NCBI GenBank assembly: GCA_963169675.1 | Contig: CAUJFJ010000108.1 | Location: 1-53,152, forward strand | Origin: Bacteroidota bacterium | Lineage (GTDB): Bacteria; Bacteroidota; Bacteroidia; AKYH767-A; OLB10 | Length of the DNA stretch: 53,152 bases | Direction of reading: 5' to 3' | In this document: positions 2,027-30,736 of the stretch, piece after piece | Numbering within the stretch: the stretch's first letter is position 1 | How the letters are laid out: the number at the start of each line of letters is the position of its first letter | The notes under the pieces: model-generated | Told to the model about the DNA's origin: nothing | The model's input: the letters and a program-made list of their open reading frames with translations, nothing else | Database searches by the model: none | Made by a program: the position numbers and the translations under genes

Positions 2027-2069
2027 TCTGACTTTTTTGTCATTTATTATATCCATATTATTATCTTTG
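2027..2069 (+). promoter_or_regulatory. Putative promoter of Rrf2 gene 1: inverted repeat TCTGACTTTTTTGTCATT (2027-2044), 17-nt spacer, -7 box TATCTTTG (2062-2069)
   Basis: Geometry identical to the sites at 9467-9509 and 12929-12971. Confidence 0.5.
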
Positions 2070-2084
2070 GCAAAAATATCCTCA

Positions 2085-2540
2085 ATGTTCTCAAAAGGTT
2101 GTGAATATGCTATTAGAGCTGCTATATACATAGCCAGCAAGTCGGAATATGACACAAAGATAAGCTTGATTGAAATTGCATCAGAAATTGGTGCGCCAAT
2201 TCCGTTCACCGCTAAAATTCTACATAAACTTTCAAAAGGCAGAATTGTAGAATCGATAAAAGGGCCCAATGGGGGCTTTTCGATAAATAATCAATCGATT
2301 TCAAAAGTAAATCTAACTCAAATAGTAGAAGCAATTGATGGAAAATCAGTATTTGAGGAGTGCAAGTTAGGATTTAAAATGTGCAATGATGTAAAGCCAT
2401 GTCCGGTACACCACAAATATAAAGAAATACGTCACACTTTCAAGAAAATGATGGAAACAACATCATTAGCTGAAATGTCAATTGGAATAAAATCAAACCA
2501 AACATATTTAAAACAGACAGAGTTTCTACCACCATGTTAA
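2085..2540 (+). CDS. Rrf2 family transcriptional regulator (Fe-S type)
   Basis: MFSKGCEYAIRAAIYIASKS...; cysteine motif C-x6-C-x5-C-PVH; start moved to ATG 2085 from ORF start 1995. Confidence 0.9.
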   Translation: MFSKGCEYAIRAAIYIASKSEYDTKISLIEIASEIGAPIPFTAKILHKLSKGRIVESIKGPNGGFSINNQSISKVNLTQIVEAIDGKSVFEECKLGFKMCNDVKPCPVHHKYKEIRHTFKKMMETTSLAEMSIGIKSNQTYLKQTEFLPPC

Positions 2541-2625
2541 AACCTATGAGATATACTCCAAAGTACGTCCACAAATTTTGATTTCTAGAATTTAAAAGCA
2601 TCGTTCATATTTTAAAAAAGCTACT

Positions 2626-3369
2626 ATGCAGATAAGCAAATCAACCACAGTAGGGCAAATAGTTGCCAATGAATTCCAGACAGCTAAAATATTTGAGAAA
2701 TACAATATAGATTTTTGTTGCAAAGGCCATATTCTTTTGGAAGATGCTTGTAAACAAAGACAAATAAATTATGAAGAACTTGTGACGCAACTATTGACTG
2801 AAATAAATTCAAACTCACCAAAAGGTGGCAATCCTATAGTATTGAATCCTAAACAACTAATTGATCACATAATTTCAAAACATCACAGATATATTATAAA
2901 TTCCATTCCCAGTATAACTTCATTTCTCACCAAATTATCTTCAGTTCATGGCCCTAAACATCAGGAGCTACACCAAATAAGATCGGAATTTACTCAAGCT
3001 ACCAATGAACTGGCCAATCATATGAGAAAAGAAGAATTGGTACTTTTTCCAATAATTAAAAATCTGTATAAATTAAAAAAGGATAGCTATAAGGTGTCAA
3101 CTGAACTAAACAATGCCATTATACATCCAATAAAGTCTATGATGCGTGAACATGAAATTGAGGGAGAAAGATTTGAGTCCATAAAGCTACTATCCAGTCA
3201 GTACACAGTTCCAGAAGATGGTTGTATAACATATCATGTCACATATAAGATGCTCAAAGATTTTCACCAAGATCTTCATGAACATATACATCTTGAGAAC
3301 AATATTTTATTCCCGATGGCTCTCAAACTTGAAATGGAAGTCAGTGGCACTAACTATTTCTACTCATAA
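2626..3369 (+). CDS. ric: Iron-sulfur cluster repair di-iron protein (RIC/YtfE/ScdA)
   Basis: ScdA_N domain TVGQIVANEFQTAKIFEKYNIDFCCKG, then hemerythrin-like His/Glu motifs. Confidence 0.92.
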   Translation: MQISKSTTVGQIVANEFQTAKIFEKYNIDFCCKGHILLEDACKQRQINYEELVTQLLTEINSNSPKGGNPIVLNPKQLIDHIISKHHRYIINSIPSITSFLTKLSSVHGPKHQELHQIRSEFTQATNELANHMRKEELVLFPIIKNLYKLKKDSYKVSTELNNAIIHPIKSMMREHEIEGERFESIKLLSSQYTVPEDGCITYHVTYKMLKDFHQDLHEHIHLENNILFPMALKLEMEVSGTNYFYS

Positions 3370-3425
3370 CCTGTATATAGTTTCAACAGTTAAAGTGCGC
3401 TCTCAGAAACAAAAGTAAAACAAAG

Positions 3426-3881
3426 ATGCCAGTCCCACTTAAACGCAGCGAATTATTATCAGTTTACAGCAAAGAACATCACTTTGCTTTATTATTTATT
3501 TGGAAGTTGAAAAAAGGGCTTAAGAAAAACGTAGCACTCATACGATTACAAAATTATACCCATTGGTTTTACCAACGCTATATTACTCCACATTTTGAAA
3601 ATGAAGAGCAGTTTCTTTTCCCCTTAGTCGAGGATAAAGTGAGTCTGAACAGACTAATACAGGAGCACAACACGATTAGATTACTGTTTAACAGAAACAA
3701 TGTTGATGAGACCACAATGGTTGAATTATGCACAATTTTGGATGATCACATAAGATATGAAGAACGCATTGTGTTTAAACATTTAGAAACTATAATTCAC
3801 TTTTCAAAATCGGTTCAACAAGATTTAAGTAACAATACTTTGAAAAATGAAATAGAGTATTGCGATATCTTCTGGCTTTAA
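3426..3881 (+). CDS. Hemerythrin domain-containing protein
   Basis: EHHFALLF, HFENEEQFLFPLV, QEHNTIRLLF, DDHIRYEERIVF metal-ligand pattern. Confidence 0.8.
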   Translation: MPVPLKRSELLSVYSKEHHFALLFIWKLKKGLKKNVALIRLQNYTHWFYQRYITPHFENEEQFLFPLVEDKVSLNRLIQEHNTIRLLFNRNNVDETTMVELCTILDDHIRYEERIVFKHLETIIHFSKSVQQDLSNNTLKNEIEYCDIFWL

Positions 3882-4155
3882 ATCCTTTATAATAACACCG
3901 CTTATAGTTATTGCTTCTAAAATTAAATTTCTTAACTACTTTTAAAAATGTAAATTTTAAATTATTTTCATACATATTCTACCCGTTTACTATTCCTTTT
4001 CATTTTATAGTACAATAAAATAATTATTAATATTAAAACAACTGATAGCTAAACGCCCTTCACACCATCAAAAAATGTTAGTAAAGTTGTTAAATTCTAT
4101 TTCCATTCTGTGTATTTTACTCAAGAAGCCTGTGTACTTTTACTTTCATACCAGG

Positions 4156-4197
4156 AGCGTTAATTATAACGCTTAAATTTTTAATAATTAACCTTTG
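4156..4197 (+). promoter_or_regulatory. Putative nrdD promoter: palindrome AGCGTTA-ATTA-TAACGCT (4156-4173) upstream of a degenerate -7 box near 4189-4197
   Basis: Perfect 7-bp arms; placed about 40 nt upstream of the inferred start site, as for class II CRP/FNR sites. Confidence 0.4.
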
Positions 4198-4272
4198 GGG
4201 TGTAAATCAAAATTATTTCAATAAACATTGAACAAATTAATTCTGACATTTTTAATATCAAAGTCAATCAAT

Positions 4273-6387
4273 ATGGAAAATTATGTAATAAAAAGGAATG
4301 GGAAATATGAACCTTTTCTAAAATACAAAATAGAGAATGCGATATCAAGTGCATTCAACAGCGTTAGTGAACCTGTTAACTCTTTTGTTATCGAAAATGT
4401 TATTGCAAAACTTGAAATAAAGACATCATGGACGGTAGAAGAAATCCAAGACTTAATTGAATTGACGCTGTATGAACACAAACATTTCAATCCAATGCGT
4501 TCCTTTATGCAATACAGGCATACAAGAAAGCTTTTGCGGAGCAAGGAAACTGGCTTCACTGATCAAACAACATTTATTGATTGCACTCAAACTATAGATG
4601 AGTACATCAATAACAGTGACTGGAGAATTAATGCAAATGCCAACACATCATTTTCTAATGCTGGTTTAGTAAACAACGCTGCTGGTAAAATAATTGCCAA
4701 CTATTGGTTGGATAAAGTTTATAGCAAGCAAGAAGGCCATGCACATAGAAATGGTGACATTCACATACATGACCTCGATTGTCTAACAGGATATTGCGCG
4801 GGATGGAGCCTGAGATCGTTGCTAAATGAAGGATTCAATGGCGTAAGAGGAAGGGTTGAGAGCCGGCCACCATCTCATTTCAGAGAAGCACTTGGACAAA
4901 TGGCAAATTTTCTTGGGATACTACAAAGTGAATGGGCGGGAGCCCAAGCTTTCAGTTCATTCGACACTTATTTGGCTCCGTATGTTTTCAAAGACCAATT
5001 AAGCTATGAAGAAGTTTTGAAAGCAATTAAAAGTTTTGTCTATAACTTAAACGTACCTGCACGTTGGGGGCAATCACCATTTACAAACATTACTCTAGAC
5101 TGGGTAGTTCCTGAAGATTTAAAAAACCAAATTCCTACAAAAGAAGATAAGCACCTTTTCAGTGGAATAATAGATGATACATTATTAAGTGTAGCAAAAG
5201 AACGGAACGTAAATAGTTTAGAGTCATTGACCTATAGTCATTTTCAAAAAGAAATAAATATAATAAATCATGCCTTTTATGCTGTAATGACAGCAGGTGA
5301 TTCAAACGGCCAACCATTCACATTTCCAATACCAACTGTAAATATCACAGAAGATTTTGACTGGGATGGAGAAAATACGGATATTTTGTTTGAAAATACA
5401 GCCAAAATAGGATCCTCCTACTTCCAAAATTTTATAGGAAGCCAATACACTATCGATAAAGCAGGTAATAAAATGCCAAATGATTCGGCCTATAAACCAA
5501 ATGCCGTTAGAAGTATGTGTTGCAGACTTCAATTAGATCTTAGGGAGCTTCTTAAAAGAGGTAATGGGCTTTTTGGAAGTGCTGAAATGACAGGAAGCAT
5601 TGGAGTTGTGACAATAAATATGGCCAGATTGGGGTATTTATATAAAGGGAACTCAGAGCTATTATACTCAAAACTTGATGAATTACTTGATATTGCCAAA
5701 TCTACTCTGGAGAAGAAAAGGATATTCATACAAAAAATGTATGACAGAGGACTTTATCCATATACAAAAAGGTATTTGAGGCATTTCAAAAATCACTTTT
5801 CTACAATAGGAGTAAATGGAATAAATGAAATGATCATCAATTTTACTAACAACGCAAACGATACTACTACAGGTAACGGAATCAAAATTGCATCAGACGT
5901 TTTAGATTATATACGATCTAAAATGAAGCAGTACCAATCAGAAACGGGAAATCTATACAACCTTGAAGCTACACCTGCAGAGGGCACAACATATAGATTT
6001 GCTAAAGAAGATAAGAAGCGGTTCCCAGATATCAAACAAGCAGGTACTGGCGAAAACATTTACTATACAAACAGTTCTCAATTACCAGTTAACTTCACAG
6101 AAGATCCTTTTGAGGCATTATTATTGCAAGATGATCTACAATGCAAATATACGGGCGGGACTGTTCTTCATTTGTATATGACCGAAAAAATATCTTCACC
6201 AAAGGCATGTAAAAACTTGGTTAAAAAAGTGATCAGCAATTTTAAACTGCCATATATTACCATAACCCCGGTATTCAGTATTTGCCCAAAACATGGCTAC
6301 TTAACCGGGGAGCATGAATATTGTCCAATATGTGATCAACAATTAACAGAATCCAAAAAAGTACTTGAGAATGAAAACATTAACTAA
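4273..6387 (+). CDS. nrdD: Anaerobic ribonucleoside-triphosphate reductase, catalytic and Zn-site portion lacking the glycyl-radical domain
   Basis: ATP-cone N-terminus MENYVIKRNGKYEPF; C-terminal CPKHGYLTGEHEYCPIC Zn motif; terminates without the RVxGYxRP glycyl-radical motif. Confidence 0.93.
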   Translation: MENYVIKRNGKYEPFLKYKIENAISSAFNSVSEPVNSFVIENVIAKLEIKTSWTVEEIQDLIELTLYEHKHFNPMRSFMQYRHTRKLLRSKETGFTDQTTFIDCTQTIDEYINNSDWRINANANTSFSNAGLVNNAAGKIIANYWLDKVYSKQEGHAHRNGDIHIHDLDCLTGYCAGWSLRSLLNEGFNGVRGRVESRPPSHFREALGQMANFLGILQSEWAGAQAFSSFDTYLAPYVFKDQLSYEEVLKAIKSFVYNLNVPARWGQSPFTNITLDWVVPEDLKNQIPTKEDKHLFSGIIDDTLLSVAKERNVNSLESLTYSHFQKEINIINHAFYAVMTAGDSNGQPFTFPIPTVNITEDFDWDGENTDILFENTAKIGSSYFQNFIGSQYTIDKAGNKMPNDSAYKPNAVRSMCCRLQLDLRELLKRGNGLFGSAEMTGSIGVVTINMARLGYLYKGNSELLYSKLDELLDIAKSTLEKKRIFIQKMYDRGLYPYTKRYLRHFKNHFSTIGVNGINEMIINFTNNANDTTTGNGIKIASDVLDYIRSKMKQYQSETGNLYNLEATPAEGTTYRFAKEDKKRFPDIKQAGTGENIYYTNSSQLPVNFTEDPFEALLLQDDLQCKYTGGTVLHLYMTEKISSPKACKNLVKKVISNFKLPYITITPVFSICPKHGYLTGEHEYCPICDQQLTESKKVLENENIN

Positions 6388-6535
6388 ACAACAAGCATTA
6401 CCAGAATTCCCAACAAGTTTAAGAACAAAATGTCTGGTTTATACAAGGGTAATGGGCTATCATAGACCCGTTGAAAGTTTCAATATTGGGAAAAAGGGAG
6501 AACATAAACAACGACTCCACTTCCGTGAATTCTAA
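6371..6535 (+). CDS. Stand-alone glycyl-radical domain of class III RNR (54 aa), absent from the supplied ORF track
   Basis: ATG 6371 translates to MKTLTKQQALPEFPTSLRTKCLVYTRVMGYHRPVESFNIGKKGEHKQRLHFREF*; RVMGYHRP is the NrdD glycyl-radical motif; overlaps nrdD 3' end by 17 nt in the +1 frame. Confidence 0.8.
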   Translation: MKTLTKQQALPEFPTSLRTKCLVYTRVMGYHRPVESFNIGKKGEHKQRLHFREF

Positions 6536-7211
6536 AAATATAATTTATGACATAACACCTTTTACTGCATTAGATTACCCTGATAAGCTAGCGTGTATTT
6601 TATGGTTTGCCGGGTGTAATATGCGCTGTTCATATTGCTATAATCCGGAAATTGTTCTTGGCAAAGGGAACCTTACAAGTAAGCAGGCGTTAAAATTTGT
6701 TAGGTCGAGGAATCTTTTACTCGATGGAGTTGTCTTTAGTGGTGGAGAATGTACAATTCATAAAGAGTTGCCAGATATTGTGTATGAGGTAAAAAAATGT
6801 GGCTTTCTGGTGAAAATCGATACAAACGGCAGTAATCCGGATTGTCTTCAACTACTTATCGACAATCAATTGATTGACTATGTTGCTTTAGATTTTAAGG
6901 CCCTTCCTGACAAAACATACAAAATAACTCAAAGGAATTTATTTTCCAAATTCTCCGAATCACTAGCCATTTTACAAAACTCTTCAATTCCCTTTGAAGT
7001 TCGAACCACAGTCCATAGTCAATTCTTCAGTCGTCCTTACATAAACAAAATGGTGAATTTTCTTGAAATGGCTGGATATACCGGAATATACTACTTGCAA
7101 AATTTTAGAAATGATTGCAATACCTTAGGAAATCTAATGAATGACAATGGGAAGTATTTGATCAACAATTTCATTCAAAATAAAATACATATTGAAATAA
7201 GAAACCTCTAA
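6525..7211 (+). CDS. nrdG: Anaerobic ribonucleoside-triphosphate reductase activating protein (radical SAM)
   Basis: IIYDITPFTALDYPDKLACILWFAGCNMRCSYCYNPE with CxxxCxxC cluster; start ambiguous (TTG 6471, TTG 6486 or GTG 6525). Confidence 0.9.
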   Translation: MNSKNIIYDITPFTALDYPDKLACILWFAGCNMRCSYCYNPEIVLGKGNLTSKQALKFVRSRNLLLDGVVFSGGECTIHKELPDIVYEVKKCGFLVKIDTNGSNPDCLQLLIDNQLIDYVALDFKALPDKTYKITQRNLFSKFSESLAILQNSSIPFEVRTTVHSQFFSRPYINKMVNFLEMAGYTGIYYLQNFRNDCNTLGNLMNDNGKYLINNFIQNKIHIEIRNL

Positions 7212-7235
7212 TTTCTTCTCACAAATCAAAATTAT

Positions 7236-8273
7236 TTAGGGCTCACCAAACAAAGGATTTGTGAATATCGTTGTATCTGTAAGTGTATTTAGAAATGCTT
7301 TTAGATTATGTATTTCAAATGGTGTAAGGCCTAACCCAAATTCTTTTCCGGGTTTAGTCATGATGGGATCAAGCGAATTGCTCAATTTTACGTCATTATT
7401 ATAATGGTTTATAACTTCATCTATTGTGGAGAATCTCCCATCATGCATAAAAGATGACCTGGTTAATACATTTCTCAAAGATGGTGTTTTGAATTTCCCT
7501 TTATCTGCAGGATTTCCCGATGAAAGGAAAAAACCCAAATCAGATCCAACAAAAACAGAATCTAATCCAATATTATGCAACTGACCATCCGTCATTAATG
7601 GAAGTGAATGACAATGGAAACAATCTCCTTTTTCTGAATTAAAAATTGTAAATCCCATCATTTCACTTAAAGACAGATTTTCCTCATGCCTCAAAAATCT
7701 GTCAAACTTAGAGTTCCCGCTGACTATTGATCTCAGAAACTGAGCCAGCGCCATTTCAATTCTTTCGTGGTTTATGTAAGAAGAACCAAAAGCTTTGAAA
7801 AACAACGAAGGATATACAGCAGAATTCTGTAGTTTTGAAACATCTGTTCCAAAAAACTCCCGTACTTCAAATCGCATTGCATCCTCTAACGAATTACTAA
7901 TTCTTCCATTCCATAGAAATTTGGAATTATATGCTAAATTTACATGCGGTAAAACATTAACACCTGGAGCAGAAAATCCAAATTCCTGAAAATGACAAGA
8001 AGAGCAAGATTTAAGATTCCCTGGATGTAATATAGAGTCATAATATAATTTGCGTCCCAATGCTACTCCTTCGAATGTTGCACTATTCGAGACAGGTATA
8101 ATCATTTGAGGAAAATGAGATGGCACATCATAACTATACGGCGTAGGACTATAATGCTCAGCTAAGTTTGTTGACCCATTATCATTGCATCCATAAAATA
8201 AAATGTTAAGAGTAAACACACCTGAAAAGACAAAAAATGATCTAAGCTTAATCACCAAATACATCTTCACCAT
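7236..8273 (-). CDS. Diheme cytochrome-c peroxidase / MauG / MbnH-like protein
   Basis: Two CxxCH motifs (CSSCH, CFHCH); FLRSIVSGNSKFDRF; GKFKTPSLRNVLTRSSFMHDGRF. Confidence 0.92.
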   Translation of the reverse strand: MVKMYLVIKLRSFFVFSGVFTLNILFYGCNDNGSTNLAEHYSPTPYSYDVPSHFPQMIIPVSNSATFEGVALGRKLYYDSILHPGNLKSCSSCHFQEFGFSAPGVNVLPHVNLAYNSKFLWNGRISNSLEDAMRFEVREFFGTDVSKLQNSAVYPSLFFKAFGSSYINHERIEMALAQFLRSIVSGNSKFDRFLRHEENLSLSEMMGFTIFNSEKGDCFHCHSLPLMTDGQLHNIGLDSVFVGSDLGFFLSSGNPADKGKFKTPSLRNVLTRSSFMHDGRFSTIDEVINHYNNDVKLSNSLDPIMTKPGKEFGLGLTPFEIHNLKAFLNTLTDTTIFTNPLFGEP

Positions 8274-8994
8274 TTCTACAAAGTTTTAACATTGCATTGT
8301 CACTTCCCATCGAATAATTTCCATCAATATTAAAATCATATATCTCGGGATCTCGAAACCATTCATTTATATTCATATTTAATCTAATTGTATCTCTACT
8401 GGAATTTACAGTGAAATTTCCCTCTAATTCATTTGTAACTAAATGAGCATTTTTTCCTAAATGTATTGCAAGGCCATAATCCATTCCGGAAGCTTTAAAT
8501 TTTCCCTCAAGTTTCATAAAATGATATCCACCTCCCATTTGGTCGGGCCAGGCCATATTAAAATTATCTGCACTAGGAGTCAGTGAATTTGATATATTAT
8601 GTAATGAATCGAGACCAACACAAAATGATAATGCATCGTACTCACCATACTTTATTCCTGAAAGTGAAAAAATAAAATTGCCCTTATTGCTCGATATATC
8701 TACATAAACTACCGAATCCGAACTGGTTTCCAAAATGCCGTCCTTCCATAGCTTAAACCTGCTCAAATAAAATTGCAATTTATTTACTGTATAAATATCT
8801 CCTGCTTGATTTTGATACTCAACTGAATCAAAAATCAAAGGTAGATTATCAATGATAGCCTTCACAGCAACTGTTACTTTTGTATTTTCTGCCATAGCAG
8901 GAGGAGAATCTTCATTTTTATTACATGCAGTGATTAACCACATAAACATGAACAAACTCAAACATAATAATTTTGGTGCTTTCATTGCCAACAA
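8248..8994 (-). CDS. MbnP-like copper-protein family lipoprotein
   Basis: Lipobox-like LITACNK; VNKLQFYLSRFKLW; WPDQMGGGYHFMKLEGKF typical of MbnP-like proteins; overlaps the MbnH-like gene. Confidence 0.8.
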   Translation of the reverse strand: MLAMKAPKLLCLSLFMFMWLITACNKNEDSPPAMAENTKVTVAVKAIIDNLPLIFDSVEYQNQAGDIYTVNKLQFYLSRFKLWKDGILETSSDSVVYVDISSNKGNFIFSLSGIKYGEYDALSFCVGLDSLHNISNSLTPSADNFNMAWPDQMGGGYHFMKLEGKFKASGMDYGLAIHLGKNAHLVTNELEGNFTVNSSRDTIRLNMNINEWFRDPEIYDFNIDGNYSMGSDNAMLKLCRNGEDVFGD

Positions 8995-9011
8995 TTTAAA
9001 TTATCCTTTTG

Positions 9012-9449
9012 TTAATTTGTCAAAAATACTTGGCCTGTCCTGAGTTTTTTAGCCAGAGTGAGTAATTTAGTATTATGTAACAAATCATTCAGATTCTGTT
9101 TTATATTTCTATATTGACTATGCATAGGACATGGGACATTATCTGAGCATGCTTTTAACCCCATGATACAGACAGAATAGTCTGCTTTTCCATCAACCGC
9201 ATTAACAATATGACACAAGTTTAATGACTCTAATTTTTCTTTCTCAATATCAAAACCTCCTGACTTACCTAATGAAGATCTGACAATGCCACTTTTCTTC
9301 AGCAATTGTAGAAGTTTTGATGTAAAAGCTTCAGGCGACTCTATTTGAATTGAAATTTCTTTCAAATTCACCTTTTCTCCTTCAAGAGATTTTAAGGCAA
9401 TAAATACAGTTGCCCGGATAGAATATTCACTTGCTTTAGATAGTATCAT
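9012..9449 (-). CDS. Rrf2 family transcriptional regulator (Fe-S type)
   Basis: MILSKASEYSIRATVFIALKS...; C-x6-C-x5-C-PMH motif; 17 nt upstream of the MbnP-like gene. Confidence 0.9.
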   Translation of the reverse strand: MILSKASEYSIRATVFIALKSLEGEKVNLKEISIQIESPEAFTSKLLQLLKKSGIVRSSLGKSGGFDIEKEKLESLNLCHIVNAVDGKADYSVCIMGLKACSDNVPCPMHSQYRNIKQNLNDLLHNTKLLTLAKKLRTGQVFLTN

Positions 9450-9466
9450 ATGATCAAATTATTAAT

Positions 9467-9509
9467 CAAAGATACGACAAAATAATTTAATTTGGATAAA
9501 TTAGTCCAA
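9467..9509 (-). promoter_or_regulatory. Putative promoter of Rrf2-mbnP-mbnH operon: palindrome TTGGACTAATTTATCCAA (9492-9509), 17-nt spacer, -7 box TATCTTTG (9467-9474)
   Basis: Palindrome on + strand is TTGGATAAATTAGTCCAA, symmetric at 16 of 18 positions. Confidence 0.6.
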
Positions 9510-9546
9510 TTATATCCAACAGAGTAAATAATCTCTATTGTGTTGA

Positions 9547-10884
9547 TTATATACGTTTTATGGTTTTTGGAGAGTTCAGCATCCAGATCAAAACCAAGGC
9601 CAATGCCGATAAACCCACTGCCAGAAAAGTTCCCGAACTGGCAAATATTATGATCCAAGGTTTTAGTTTTAAAGACAAATCCGTAAAAGATCCATTGGTG
9701 ACTTGATATTGCCAGATTATTTTACAAATTCCAGCGGAGTCTAAAGAAACGACAAATACGAAAAGAGAAATTTGAATGGTCCAGAATAAATAAGAAATCA
9801 TCGTAGTGACTTTGTCTGATAAACATATTCGTGAACAAATAAATTCACTACAGCCTGCTAAAAGAATCATCGAATTGATTCCTATTGTTGTACCCATGGC
9901 ATGTGCTACTGTTACATGCGTACCATGGGTAAACAAATTAAATGCTGGAATTGACATCAAAAGTGCCTGAATCAAATTTAACAGCAACCATGCATCAGCT
10001 GCCATAAGAAACTTAAAAGGTAAATAATGAAAATTCTTGGTAGCAGAATCAATTGTGCTTCTCCAGCTAAATAAAATCTTTAATAAAAAAATCCATTCTG
10101 TCATACTGACAAGATACCCCACTGTTCTCACTATATTATGTGTAGGCAAAGAATAAATATGGTGCCCCCAATTAAACATTAGGTTAAAGAGACCCAACAT
10201 GTAAAAAAAATAGGCCGATCTGGAAGTTGAGGTACCAGTATCTCCTTTGATCTTATCCATGAGATAAAATGCAGTACCATAAATTAATTGATTCCAACTT
10301 CCAACCAAAGATCCATTTGATTTCCATTGAATGGTTGTATCAATTATGTATTGCTCCCGGATAAAAGGGAAAATCCACAAATAATTTTCTAAGAAAGTTA
10401 ACAAGAAAAAACAGCCTCCTGCAAACCACATCCAAAAATAAACTGGCCAATTACTAACTTTGAATAGACTTTTATAAAGGTTGAATAAAAATAAAATCCA
10501 TGAGCCAAGCAAAGGCAATGCAAAAACAGGCGGAAATTCCCAATACTCTCTGCCTCCAAATTTCTGAATAAAATAAGAAGAGAAAATACCCATCAGCGCA
10601 AAAATCAACATTAGCCATTGGAAGAAAGCAAGTGGTACTGAGAATTCAATTTTGGTTGCAGAATACAAATAAATATAAACACAACTAATTGCACCTGTAA
10701 CAATCCACATAGTTACGGCGGTAACATGAATAGGCCGTAATGAAACCATTTCTAAATGGACTCCAGCGATGTCTAGGTCAAAATATTTTGATGAAGCTAA
10801 TACTCCGAACCAAACTCCTATAACTAGTAGAATTAAAGCTGTATTCCAGTAAAGTTTCTGAATCTTAAAATGACTCAACCTCAT
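9547..10884 (-). CDS. norB: Nitric oxide reductase large subunit (cNOR, heme-copper oxidase fold)
   Basis: SLRPIHVTAV, GGREYWEFPP, NWGHHIYSLP and GTHVTVAHAMGTTIGINSM ligand motifs. Confidence 0.9.
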   Translation of the reverse strand: MRLSHFKIQKLYWNTALILLVIGVWFGVLASSKYFDLDIAGVHLEMVSLRPIHVTAVTMWIVTGAISCVYIYLYSATKIEFSVPLAFFQWLMLIFALMGIFSSYFIQKFGGREYWEFPPVFALPLLGSWILFLFNLYKSLFKVSNWPVYFWMWFAGGCFFLLTFLENYLWIFPFIREQYIIDTTIQWKSNGSLVGSWNQLIYGTAFYLMDKIKGDTGTSTSRSAYFFYMLGLFNLMFNWGHHIYSLPTHNIVRTVGYLVSMTEWIFLLKILFSWRSTIDSATKNFHYLPFKFLMAADAWLLLNLIQALLMSIPAFNLFTHGTHVTVAHAMGTTIGINSMILLAGCSEFICSRICLSDKVTTMISYLFWTIQISLFVFVVSLDSAGICKIIWQYQVTNGSFTDLSLKLKPWIIIFASSGTFLAVGLSALALVLIWMLNSPKTIKRI

Positions 10885-11294
10885 TTTCTAATGACCCTTC
10901 CATCGAATTTTATTAAATAATTATCGGGAAGCGATGTTCCCGTTTTGTCTACCAATTCCAAAAATCTAACTATTGATTCAAGTTCTTCAGAGCTCATATT
11001 GAACGCCGGCATCTTTGCAGATCCCGCTTTAATATATGCTTTAATATAATTCGAGCTCTTCCCCTTTTGAGATGATACATTAGTCAAGTCTGGACCCAAA
11101 TATCCGCCAAGTCCATACAACTGATGACAGGCTTGACAGTTGTACTTTTGAAATACTAAATGACCCTCACCAATTTCTGCACTTCGATCATATTCGAAAG
11201 CAGACAATTTAACAGGAGTAATGTAAATCCAAACAGAAAATAGAAAGTACAACACGCATAGCAATATAAAAACCAAGAATTTTTTAGGATTCAT
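10881..11294 (-). CDS. norC: Nitric oxide reductase cytochrome c subunit
   Basis: N-terminal TM anchor, single CQACH heme site, LGPDLTNV, KMPAFNMSSEELESIVRFL; ATGA overlap with norB. Confidence 0.88.
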   Translation of the reverse strand: MNPKKFLVFILLCVLYFLFSVWIYITPVKLSAFEYDRSAEIGEGHLVFQKYNCQACHQLYGLGGYLGPDLTNVSSQKGKSSNYIKAYIKAGSAKMPAFNMSSEELESIVRFLELVDKTGTSLPDNYLIKFDGRVIRK

Positions 11295-11299
11295 CGTAC

Positions 11300-12709
11300 T
11301 TAAGAACTTAGCTTTTCAAATTTTGCCTGAAAAAATCGAAGATACTTCGGTTCATAAACCATTTTGAGGCCTTTCAATTTTTTAGCACCACTAAATACTT
11401 TTGCTGCACTTTCAGCTACAACATCCATATGTGCTTGAGTATAAACTCTGCGAGGAATAGTAAAGCGAACTAATTCCAGTTTTGGAAGTATGTTATTTCC
11501 AAATTTATCCCTTCCAGCTGAGACAACACCTCTTTCCATGGTCCTAACACCTGAATCAATATAAATTTCAGCAGCAAGCGTTTGAGCAGGGAACTGTTCC
11601 TGACTCAGATGAGGCAGAACAGATCGGGCATCTACAAATACTCCGTGCCCTCCAATGGGTCTCACAATTGGTATTCCAAAAGACTCCATTTTTTTACCAA
11701 GATATTCTACCTGTCCCACTCTTGCCATTTGATGGTAGTCATTAACACTTTCAGTTATCCCTATCGCAATTGCTTCCATATCGCGGCCTGCCAGTCCGCC
11801 ATAGGTGTGTAGCCCTTCATAGACTACAACCAAATTTCTTGCTTGCTCATAAATTTCAAAATCATTCACAGCAAGAAATCCACCAATATTTACGAGAGCA
11901 TCCTTTTTTGCACTCATAGTGGCTCCATCAGTCAGCGAACATATCTCTTTCACTATACTTGCTACGGAACGTTGTTCATTTCCCTTTTCTCTTTGCTGTA
12001 CAAAATAAGCATTTTCGGCAACTCTGGTCATATCATGGATGATCTTAATGCCATGTTTTGAAGTAAGCTTACGAACGGCTTTCAGATTTTCAACACTAAT
12101 AGGTTGACCACCGGCCATATTAACATTTGTAGCGATACTAATATAGGGAATTTTGCCTGCACCATACTTTTTAATTAGGTTTTCAAGCTTATGTAAATCA
12201 ATATTCCCCTTAAATGGGAATTCGTTAAAAGGGTGATGCGCTTCATCAACGATGATATCTTTGAAGTTACCACCGGCCAGCTCTTGATGCAACCTTGTAG
12301 TAGTAAAATACATATTACCTGGAATAATATCACCTCTGTTGATTAAAATCTGCGACAAAATATTTTCAGCTCCTCTTCCCTGATGAGTTGGAATCACATA
12401 TTTATAACCATAGTACTTTTGAATTGCAGCTTCCATTTTATAAAAACTCTCGCTTCCCGCATAAGCTTCATCGCCAAGCATCATCCCACTCCATTGTCGG
12501 TCACTCATTGCATTTGTTCCACTATCTGTAAGTAAATCAATATAGACATCTTTGGATTGCAGTAAAAATGTATTGTAGCCTGCTTTTCTTATGTTGCTTA
12601 TTCTTTCCTTTCGAGTTGTCATCTTAAGCAACTCCACCACTTTCATCCTGTATGGCTCTGCCCAGGAATTTTGAATACTCTTTGATCGTTCACGATGATT
12701 CATTGTCAA
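11300..12709 (-). CDS. Beta-eliminating lyase, tyrosine phenol-lyase-like (tryptophanase family)
   Basis: PTHQGRGAENILSQ; MSAKKDALVNIGGF (PLP Lys); specificity positions match TPL: NMYFTTT, TMERGVVS, LRFFQAKF. Confidence 0.85.
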   Translation of the reverse strand: MTMNHRERSKSIQNSWAEPYRMKVVELLKMTTRKERISNIRKAGYNTFLLQSKDVYIDLLTDSGTNAMSDRQWSGMMLGDEAYAGSESFYKMEAAIQKYYGYKYVIPTHQGRGAENILSQILINRGDIIPGNMYFTTTRLHQELAGGNFKDIIVDEAHHPFNEFPFKGNIDLHKLENLIKKYGAGKIPYISIATNVNMAGGQPISVENLKAVRKLTSKHGIKIIHDMTRVAENAYFVQQREKGNEQRSVASIVKEICSLTDGATMSAKKDALVNIGGFLAVNDFEIYEQARNLVVVYEGLHTYGGLAGRDMEAIAIGITESVNDYHQMARVGQVEYLGKKMESFGIPIVRPIGGHGVFVDARSVLPHLSQEQFPAQTLAAEIYIDSGVRTMERGVVSAGRDKFGNNILPKLELVRFTIPRRVYTQAHMDVVAESAAKVFSGAKKLKGLKMVYEPKYLRFFQAKFEKLSS

Positions 12710-12928
12710 ATATCTTTAAGTTTAAGTGCTAGTATTTATCAAATTCGCAATATCCTTTTGGAATTTCAAACCCGTTTTGTTGAGCTGGTGCTGTTTCATG
12801 AAAGAAAAACACCAATTCTATTTAGCTCTGATAGTATGTTTGAATAGGTAATCGAATTGCATCTGTAACGATTGCTCACTTTATAACACATTGTTTTCTC
12901 ATAGGAGTCTATTTAGGTATTTTGCGGT

Positions 12929-12971
12929 CAAAATTAATAACTCCTAATTTATCTCTGACAATTTAGTCCAA
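12929..12971 (-). promoter_or_regulatory. Putative promoter of lyase-norC-norB operon: inverted repeat TTGGACTAAATTGTCAGA (12954-12971), 17-nt spacer, -7 box TAATTTTG (12929-12936)
   Basis: 14/18 identity to the 9492-9509 palindrome and identical spacing. Confidence 0.55.
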
Positions 12972-13197
12972 TTTAAATTTATGATTCTTGTCATGTTTTT
13001 ATTTATTTGACAATCAATTTTTTATAAAATGTACGGGGATGAGAAGTTGTGCTCCATGAAAAGTAGGAAATGTAGAATCAAAAATAACTTGAATTGATGT
13101 GGCATTCTTACTTGAATTCAGCCACTATAAATAGCTTTTTGCTTTTCTAAATTTTTATTGTGTAATTGGTACCTGTAAAACCATATCCGATTTTAAT

Positions 13198-29563: not shown

Positions 29564-30736
29564 TTGATAATTTTGCATCAAATGAAGAATATGAAATTCG
29601 GTACAAAAGCCATCCATGCCGGTCAGGAACCTGATCCATCCACCGGAGCCATCATGACTCCGATATATCAAACCTCAACTTACGTACAGGAATCACCCGG
29701 AAAACACAAAGGATATGCCTATGCAAGAGGTAAAAATCCAACCCGAGTTGCGCTTGAAAAGTGTATAGCAGCATTGGAAAATGCCAAGCATGGTTTATGT
29801 TTTTCAAGTGGTCAGGGAGCAGAAGATGCTATCATTAAATTATTGCGTCCCGGCGATGAGGTAATTGCTACTGATGATTTGTATGGCGGTTCATACCGGA
29901 TGTTCACAAAAATTTTTGCGCACTATGGCATTGTATTCCATTTTGTAAACATGCATGATGCCAATGAAATTAAAAATCATCTGAACGCAAAAACAAAAAT
30001 GCTTTGGGTGGAAACACCAACCAATCCGTTGATGAAAATCATCGACATAAAAGCATGCGCTAAAATTGCTGATGATAACAAACTGATTCTGGTTGTCGAT
30101 AATACTTTCGCTTCACCATATTTACAGAACCCTCTTGATTTGGGTGCTGCTATTGTTATGCATTCAGCAACCAAATATCTGGGAGGCCATTCCGATGTGG
30201 TGATGGGAGCTTTATGCACTAACAGTGACAGCCTGTATGAAGAGCTGGCATTCATAGCAAACTCCTGTGGTGCAACACCCGGACCGATGGATAGTTTTCT
30301 GGTAATGCGTGGTATAAAAACTTTGCATGTAAGAATGCAGGCACATTGCAAAAACGGAAAAGAAATTGCGCACTATTTAAAAACGCATCCAAAAATCGAC
30401 AAAGTATTCTGGCCCGGATTCGAAGATCATCCAAATCATCAGATTGCAAAAGAACAGATGCGTGACTTCGGAGGAATGATATCATTCACAATGAAGGGCA
30501 ACGATATGGATGCAGCGTTTCGTATGGCATCAGCACTCAAAGTGTTTTCACTGGCTGAATCACTCGGAGGAGTTGAATCATTAGCTGGGCATCCGGCCTC
30601 AATGACACATGCCAGCATACCAAAAGCCGAACGTGAAAAATCGGGAGTAGTAGATTCACTTATTCGTTTGAGTGTTGGTATTGAAGATATCGAGGACCTG
30701 CTTGCAGATCTGAAGCAGGCACTGGACGCATGTTAA
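29564..30736 (+). CDS. Cys/Met metabolism PLP-dependent enzyme (cystathionine gamma-synthase/lyase-like)
   Basis: FGTKAIHAGQEPDPSTGAIMTPIYQTSTY; ATKYLGGHSDVVMG; AESLGGVESLAGHPASMTHA. Confidence 0.95.
   Translation: MIILHQMKNMKFGTKAIHAGQEPDPSTGAIMTPIYQTSTYVQESPGKHKGYAYARGKNPTRVALEKCIAALENAKHGLCFSSGQGAEDAIIKLLRPGDEVIATDDLYGGSYRMFTKIFAHYGIVFHFVNMHDANEIKNHLNAKTKMLWVETPTNPLMKIIDIKACAKIADDNKLILVVDNTFASPYLQNPLDLGAAIVMHSATKYLGGHSDVVMGALCTNSDSLYEELAFIANSCGATPGPMDSFLVMRGIKTLHVRMQAHCKNGKEIAHYLKTHPKIDKVFWPGFEDHPNHQIAKEQMRDFGGMISFTMKGNDMDAAFRMASALKVFSLAESLGGVESLAGHPASMTHASIPKAEREKSGVVDSLIRLSVGIEDIEDLLADLKQALDAC

Follow-up and report, generated by a model that had tools for sequence, protein, structure and literature searches.

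A shared operator upstream of Rrf2 and nitric oxide genes in Bacteroidota, a probable target of NsrR-like repressors

Which regulator acts at the promoters of a nitric oxide (NO) gene block in a Bacteroidota bacterium? The block lies in a stretch of 53,152 nt (GCA_963169675.1, CAUJFJ010000108.1; here called the window), which forms contig 108 of a draft genome of 3.87 Mb, and contains two genes for Rrf2-family regulators, a ric gene for Fe-S cluster repair and the norCB genes for a NO reductase, which are headed by a lyase gene. The original prediction, made from the window alone, was that the promoters of rrf2-1, rrf2-2 and lyase-norCB each carry an 18-nt inverted repeat, a 17-nt spacer and a TAnnTTTG box and belong to one regulon, with an Rrf2 repressor and a class II Crp/Fnr activator both left open as the regulator. 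We consider it likely that the three sites, which we refer to as O1, O2, and O3, are operators of an NsrR-like clade of Rrf2 Fe-S repressors that is widespread in Bacteroidota and responds to NO, a conclusion drawn from comparative sequence analysis.

The three 18-mers, their 17-nt spacers and the TAnnTTTG boxes were located at 2027-2069 (+), 9509-9467 (-), and 12971-12929 (-) (Table 1), and the last two 18-mers were identical at 14 of 18 positions, as had been claimed. The description of the sites as 18-nt inverted repeats held for O2, with 7 of 9 pairs, and did not hold for O3 (5 of 9) or O1 (4 of 9). The unit common to all three was instead a 14-bp core, NGAY-N6-RTCN, with the same spacing to the -7 box at each site. 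The start of rrf2-1 was placed at the ATG at 2085, within a longer mechanical open reading frame from 1995, and O1 is therefore intergenic. It was also noted that the left half of O3 (TTGGAC) is as in O2, while its right half (GTCAGA) is the complement of the left half of O1 (TCTGAC); thus, to judge from these few bases, both Rrf2 paralogues may act at the lyase-norCB promoter.

Mapping in Flavobacterium psychrophilum (PMC9723704) placed TAnnTTTG, the sigma-A -7 element, at -12 to -5, and the operator centre is therefore at about -38.5, rather than near -40 as first estimated. Promoters of this type combine TAnnTTTG with an upstream TTG-type -33 element. The box was present in all three promoters, and TTG was found within the promoter-proximal half of O1 and O3, and TTTA in O2.

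The pattern GAC-N6-RTC-N20-TAnnTTTG, which was formulated post hoc with the sites already seen, had 3 matches in the window compared to a mean of 0.01 in dinucleotide shuffles, none of which, out of 100, had as many as 3. An independent matrix was trained on 13 Rrf2 promoters of other genera, with the window and its genus excluded. The 3 top matches of this matrix in the window were O2 (30.9) and O1 and O3 (21.1 each), ahead of a best score of 15.5 for the rest of the 53 kb. The promoters of the Rrf2 homologues in the order mostly contained GGAY-N6-RTCC, followed by 16 to 20 nt, TAnnTTTG, and about 25 to 31 nt to the ATG. Loose patterns were no more frequent in the window's own genome than in the reversed control, and 18-mers with 3 mismatches and loose cores were dominated by coding background. 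Discrimination was achieved only by tighter patterns and by the trained matrix, and strict matches outside coding sequence were located mainly at rrf2, nor-operon, and COX2-type genes.

At the scale of the phylum, the operator was identified upstream of 77 of 80 named Bacteroidota Rrf2 loci, which are mutually related, so that the counts are not independent events, and 2 of which (L209 and L210) are genomes that also occur in the analysis under other handles. Operator and box together scored at least 18 in 62 of the 80 loci and in 25 of 18,774 control segments, and many of these 25 matches were other promoters of the same regulon. The operator alone reached a score of at least 18 at 278 strand positions in the 80 loci, compared to 0 in the reversed sequence. 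The retrained phylum matrix includes the rrf2 promoters themselves, and only its matches outside rrf2 are independent.

The operator was found upstream of ric (39 of 66), nirK (20 of 25, called by passing NCBIfam TIGR02376), qNOR (15 of 22, called by PF22085), and c-type cytochrome genes (16 of 21), and further operator-bearing genes were rrf2, tryptophanase/tyrosine phenol-lyase (TPL), globin, a COX2-type gene, and a gene for a protein of about 600 residues. It headed P619/tnaA/TPL-norC-norB operons or directly preceded norC in G247, G316, G041, G066, G047, G135, and G107, and a weaker operator was present at such a position in G236. The inference that the three promoters of the window form one regulon was thereby supported, since the operator recurs before Rrf2 and NO or denitrification genes across Bacteroidota. 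Two testable outcomes had been named in advance as grounds for abandoning it, a background frequency of the motif and a lack of conservation at orthologous promoters, and neither was observed.

Within the genus, the whole gene block was present with its order unchanged in genome G029. The flanks of the rrf2-2 promoter have diverged in this genome, yet O2 is symmetric (TTGGACTAATTTATCCAA in the window vs TTGGATTAAATTATCCAA), its symmetry having survived half-site drift. O1 was identical, within a mostly conserved region. O3 was located inside a block of more than 110 nt without substitution, and its conservation is weaker evidence because the entire intergenic region is conserved.

Both Rrf2 proteins of the window belong to the family, with scores of 89.3 and 83.0 bits for TIGR00738 (cut-off 73.3) and of 84.7 and 80 bits for PF02082 (cut-off 30). 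The equivalog cut-offs in NCBIfam were not reached for NsrR (NF008240, cut-off 182; 39.5 bits for Rrf2-1 and no listed match for Rrf2-2) or for IscR (TIGR02010, cut-off 207.55; 61.9 and 57.1 bits), and those for RirA and CymR were also missed by far. The candidate cluster ligands E8, C94, C101, and C107 were invariant in 14 of 14 aligned Rrf2s, and Glu8 together with C-x6-C-x5-C-x2-H was kept in all 77 operator-bearing Rrf2s. Three Cys and an acidic residue near position 8 are ligands of the NsrR type, and a regulon of ric, qNOR, norCB, nirK, globin, and rrf2 is also of that type. The operator is different, as the sites read NGAY-N6-RTCN and not gATGyAT-N5-ATrCATc. In a small Rrf2 tree, in which deep support was weak and the row L285_rrf2y was disregarded, 6 Rrf2s of one strongly supported branch lacked the operator and most of the others had it. 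No clean rule emerged from the covariation of recognition helix and half-site, in which Glu at position 40 tended to occur with GG..CC sites among related rows.

The position of the operator bears on how it might work. The distance from core to TAnnTTTG peaked at 15 to 18 nt in the Bacteroidota Rrf2 loci, and of 60 distinct sites, 37 had the -33 TTG within the promoter-proximal quarter and 9 within the distal quarter of the operator (p = 2e-7). In most rrf2 promoters the operator therefore coincides with the -33 element, the arrangement that a putative repressor would need. We infer that an Rrf2 homodimer with an intact cluster would bind NGAY-N6-RTCN and, with the -33 TTG contained in or abutting the promoter-proximal half of the operator, would block the sigma-A RNA polymerase. 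Damage to the cluster by NO would cause the dimer to leave, and its release would lead to expression of the regulator genes, by autoregulation, as well as of ric, mbnP/mbnH, and lyase-norCB. The lyase-norCB promoter would receive a second input, probably for an activator, through a Crp/Fnr-like palindrome centred at about -63.

The choice that the original prediction had left between an Rrf2 repressor and a class II Crp/Fnr activator is, on this evidence, in favour of Rrf2 at the palindrome near -38, with the separate Crp/Fnr-like palindrome found at the lyase-norCB promoter only. An activator of the DNR, NnrR or HcpR type at O1 to O3 would fit a centre of about -38.5, which is close to -41.5, and Crp/Fnr-like sites do occur at such promoters, in a genome with 5 to 6 Crp-type helix-turn-helix genes. 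However, none of O1 to O3 contains a TTGA/TGAY-N4-RTCA palindrome at -41.5, and the Crp/Fnr-like motif, ATGAY-N4-RTCAT, is another sequence in another place. In other genomes, too, it was found at P619/tnaA promoters, on the upstream side of the operator, and it was absent from the rrf2 promoters of the window. At cytochrome and most nirK promoters it was centred 29 nt before the box, at -41.5 (12 of 12 and 7 of 8 cases), and it was found at 0 of 66 ric and 1 of 22 qNOR genes. Judged by these motifs, a Crp/Fnr-type input is present as a site separate from the operator. GGAY-N6-RTCC goes with rrf2 genes at a variable distance to the box, and such variable placement argues against a presumed activator that would require one fixed position. 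We therefore regard class II activation at O1 to O3 as very unlikely. The Crp/Fnr-like pattern alone occurred in the window at chance frequency, and additional matches at 11729-11742 and 30029-30042 are for that reason probably background.

A different signal for the same Rrf2 operators deserves more weight, although we still think it improbable, namely that the proteins respond to cluster supply, iron or redox state in the manner of IscR or RsrR, and that NO genes are targeted since NO damages Fe-S clusters. The His two residues past the third Cys is as in E. coli IscR, rrf2-1 adjoins the cluster repair gene ric, and RsrR has an acidic ligand at the position equivalent to Glu8. This is also the position of the acidic ligand of NsrR (Asp8, PMC5411485). 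Yet the genes with operators are nirK, nor, ric, globin, and cytochrome genes rather than isc or suf, and the 2 Bacteroidota Rrf2s that group most closely with E. coli IscR in the small tree also lacked the operator. As for the idea that the pattern follows from core promoter sequence (TTTG and TAnnTTTG in AT-rich DNA) or arises by chance, the operator consensus does contain TTTG, and often TAnnTTTG, and some of the loose genome matches were background; but the excess over shuffled and reversed sequence and the genes at which the strict non-coding matches fall leave this reading a negligible probability for the three sites, and for the site family as a whole it is refuted. Repression by an NO-responsive Rrf2 protein has observations of its own to contend with. 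O1 is weak, scoring 7.8 when the phylum matrix is applied without the box, and an operator at the operon head was missing from roughly half of the 20 nor loci examined. Moreover, at ric and qNOR the operator precedes the start codon by about 25 nt and is not followed by a clear box, and at nirK and the cytochrome gene about 20 bp separate it from the Crp/Fnr-like site, so that placement differs from that at rrf2 and a single occlusion model may not fit all of these genes.

Table 1. Predicted sites and genes of the NO gene block in the window
Feature	Position	Strand	Evidence
O1, predicted Rrf2 operator TCTGACTTTTTTGTCATT, divergent core TGAC-N6-GTCA, over the rrf2-1 -33 region	2027..2044	+	
-7 box of rrf2-1, TATCTTTG	2062..2069	+	
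rrf2-1, Rrf2-family regulator, Glu + C-x6-C-x5-C-x2-H	2085..2540	+	PF02082 and TIGR00738 above cut-off; alignment
ric/ytfE-type Fe-S cluster repair di-iron protein	2626..3369	+	TIGR03652, 226.7 bits (cut-off 204.7)
Second protein with a hemerythrin domain, probably in the rrf2-1 operon	3426..3881	+	PF01814
nrdD and nrdG, anaerobic ribonucleotide reductase and activase	4273..7211	+	
mbnH (di-haem MauG-like) and mbnP, downstream of rrf2-2	7236..8994	-	
rrf2-2, Rrf2-family regulator, Glu8 + C-x6-C-x5-C-x2-H	9012..9449	-	Profile searches, alignment
-7 box of rrf2-2, TATCTTTG	9467..9474	-	
O2, predicted Rrf2 operator TTGGACTAATTTATCCAA, best palindrome of the three	9492..9509	-	Matrix score 30.9
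norB and norC, cytochrome-c-type NO reductase	9547..11294	-	PF00115, PF13442
Tyrosine phenol-lyase/tryptophanase-family beta-lyase heading norCB	11300..12709	-	TIGR02618, 723.3 bits (cut-off 720.7)
-7 box of the lyase-norCB promoter, TAATTTTG	12929..12936	-	
O3, predicted Rrf2 operator TTGGACTAAATTGTCAGA	12954..12971	-	Matrix score 21.1
Crp/Fnr-like palindrome ATGACAAGAATCAT, centre about -63, upstream of O3	12981..12994	-	

The lyase clears the tyrosine phenol-lyase cut-off only narrowly. Tyrosine phenol-lyase/tryptophanase-like beta-lyases, often as tandem pairs, adjoin norCB across the class Bacteroidia, as in the window and in L170-L177, L183, L184, and L187, and a literature search found no paper that links tyrosine phenol-lyase to NO reductase. 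A relative of NorB was present in 62 of 296 genomes of the class. The arrangement closest to that of the window was identified in L213, with the order P619-tnaA-norC-norB-rrf2B-mbnP-mbnH and three operators. In the window itself, the matrix scan scored no operator at the promoter of nrdD and nrdG.

The conserved protein of about 600 residues heads or adjoins tnaA-TPL-norCB operons in L213 (1077-2933, +), L276, L217, L287, L266, L170, L171, and L177, and its gene is located under Crp/Fnr-like and Rrf2 sites in several genomes. It had no match in Pfam, NCBIfam or PDB sequences. The AlphaFold model was poor (mean pLDDT 57) and none of the matches in a fold search reached E <= 0.001, although the model gives a hint of a TIM-barrel-like core.

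Strict operators were also noted before genes for a COX2-type (CuA-like) subunit in L289 (8162-8839, -) and L290 (1810-2494, +), which is possibly part of a NO- or O2-reducing haem-copper enzyme of the regulon. In [Muricauda] okinawensis (L253, 12597-14657), operators preceded the genes for a truncated globin and a protein like tryptophan 2,3-dioxygenase (TDO), and the order rrf2-globin-TDO-like was found again in L210, L273, and L277. The strict matches in the window's own genome included a third rrf2 gene with an operator, which is cut by the end of contig 323 (L304, 9082-9362). The DNA upstream of this gene resembles the stretch near 660-790 of the window, which suggests a dispersed repeat.

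Taken further, the data lead us to lean, if only slightly, towards a broader picture in which Bacteroidota have their own clade of NO-sensing Rrf2 proteins, which has an operator of its own and governs denitrification and NO defence by a two-site code together with Crp/Fnr activators, with both sites at reductase and cytochrome promoters and the Rrf2 site alone at repair and detoxification genes; the tyrosine phenol-lyase/tryptophanase and the uncharacterised protein of about 600 residues, as unexpected regulon members, may then belong to NO metabolism. Bacteroidota are abundant denitrifiers and nitrous oxide reducers in soil, sea, and sludge, and a defined operator and gene set would make it possible to predict from sequence alone when nirK, nor, and related genes are switched on. 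It also provides a direct test case for the sharing of promoters between an Rrf2 sensor and a Crp/Fnr activator.

In the open-access paper library that was searched, no account was found of an Rrf2 regulon for NO, or of any NO-responsive repressor regulon, in Bacteroidota. Rrf2 genes have been noted in CFB (Cytophaga-Flavobacterium-Bacteroides)/clade II nosZ clusters of marine sediment metagenomes (PMC6264515), but the passages of that paper that concern them give neither an operator nor a regulon or mechanism. In a published survey (PMC1274295), NsrR, with the motif gATGyAT-N5-ATrCATc, is recorded for proteobacteria and Gram-positives, and HcpR for Bacteroides. The DNR, NnrR, and HcpR regulators control nir, nor, nos, and hcp, and class II look-alikes at -41.5 stand beside the operator at cytochrome and nirK promoters, but their palindrome is of the TTGAC-N4-GTCAA type and not the site reported here. 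IscR and RsrR belong to the Rrf2 family, are the closest solved structures by sequence and, in E. coli IscR, have the same His spacing, whereas the operator-associated Rrf2s of Bacteroidota have no link to isc or suf. The resemblance to NsrR of Proteobacteria, Bacillota, and Actinomycetota includes the Rrf2 fold, the three Cys, the acidic residue 8, and a regulon for NO detoxification and denitrification (PMC1274295, PMC9338935, PMC5411485), with three Cys and Asp8 as the cluster ligands in Streptomyces (PMC5411485), as well as autoregulation, known at least in Streptomyces. The Bacteroidota system differs in the GGAY-N6-RTCC operator, in the x6/x5 spacing of the Cys with a His after the third, and in targets such as TPL/tryptophanase-norCB and a Bacteroidota nirK that carries a fused cytochrome c. 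By these comparisons, the system is most likely an NsrR-like regulon with an operator of its own in Bacteroidota.

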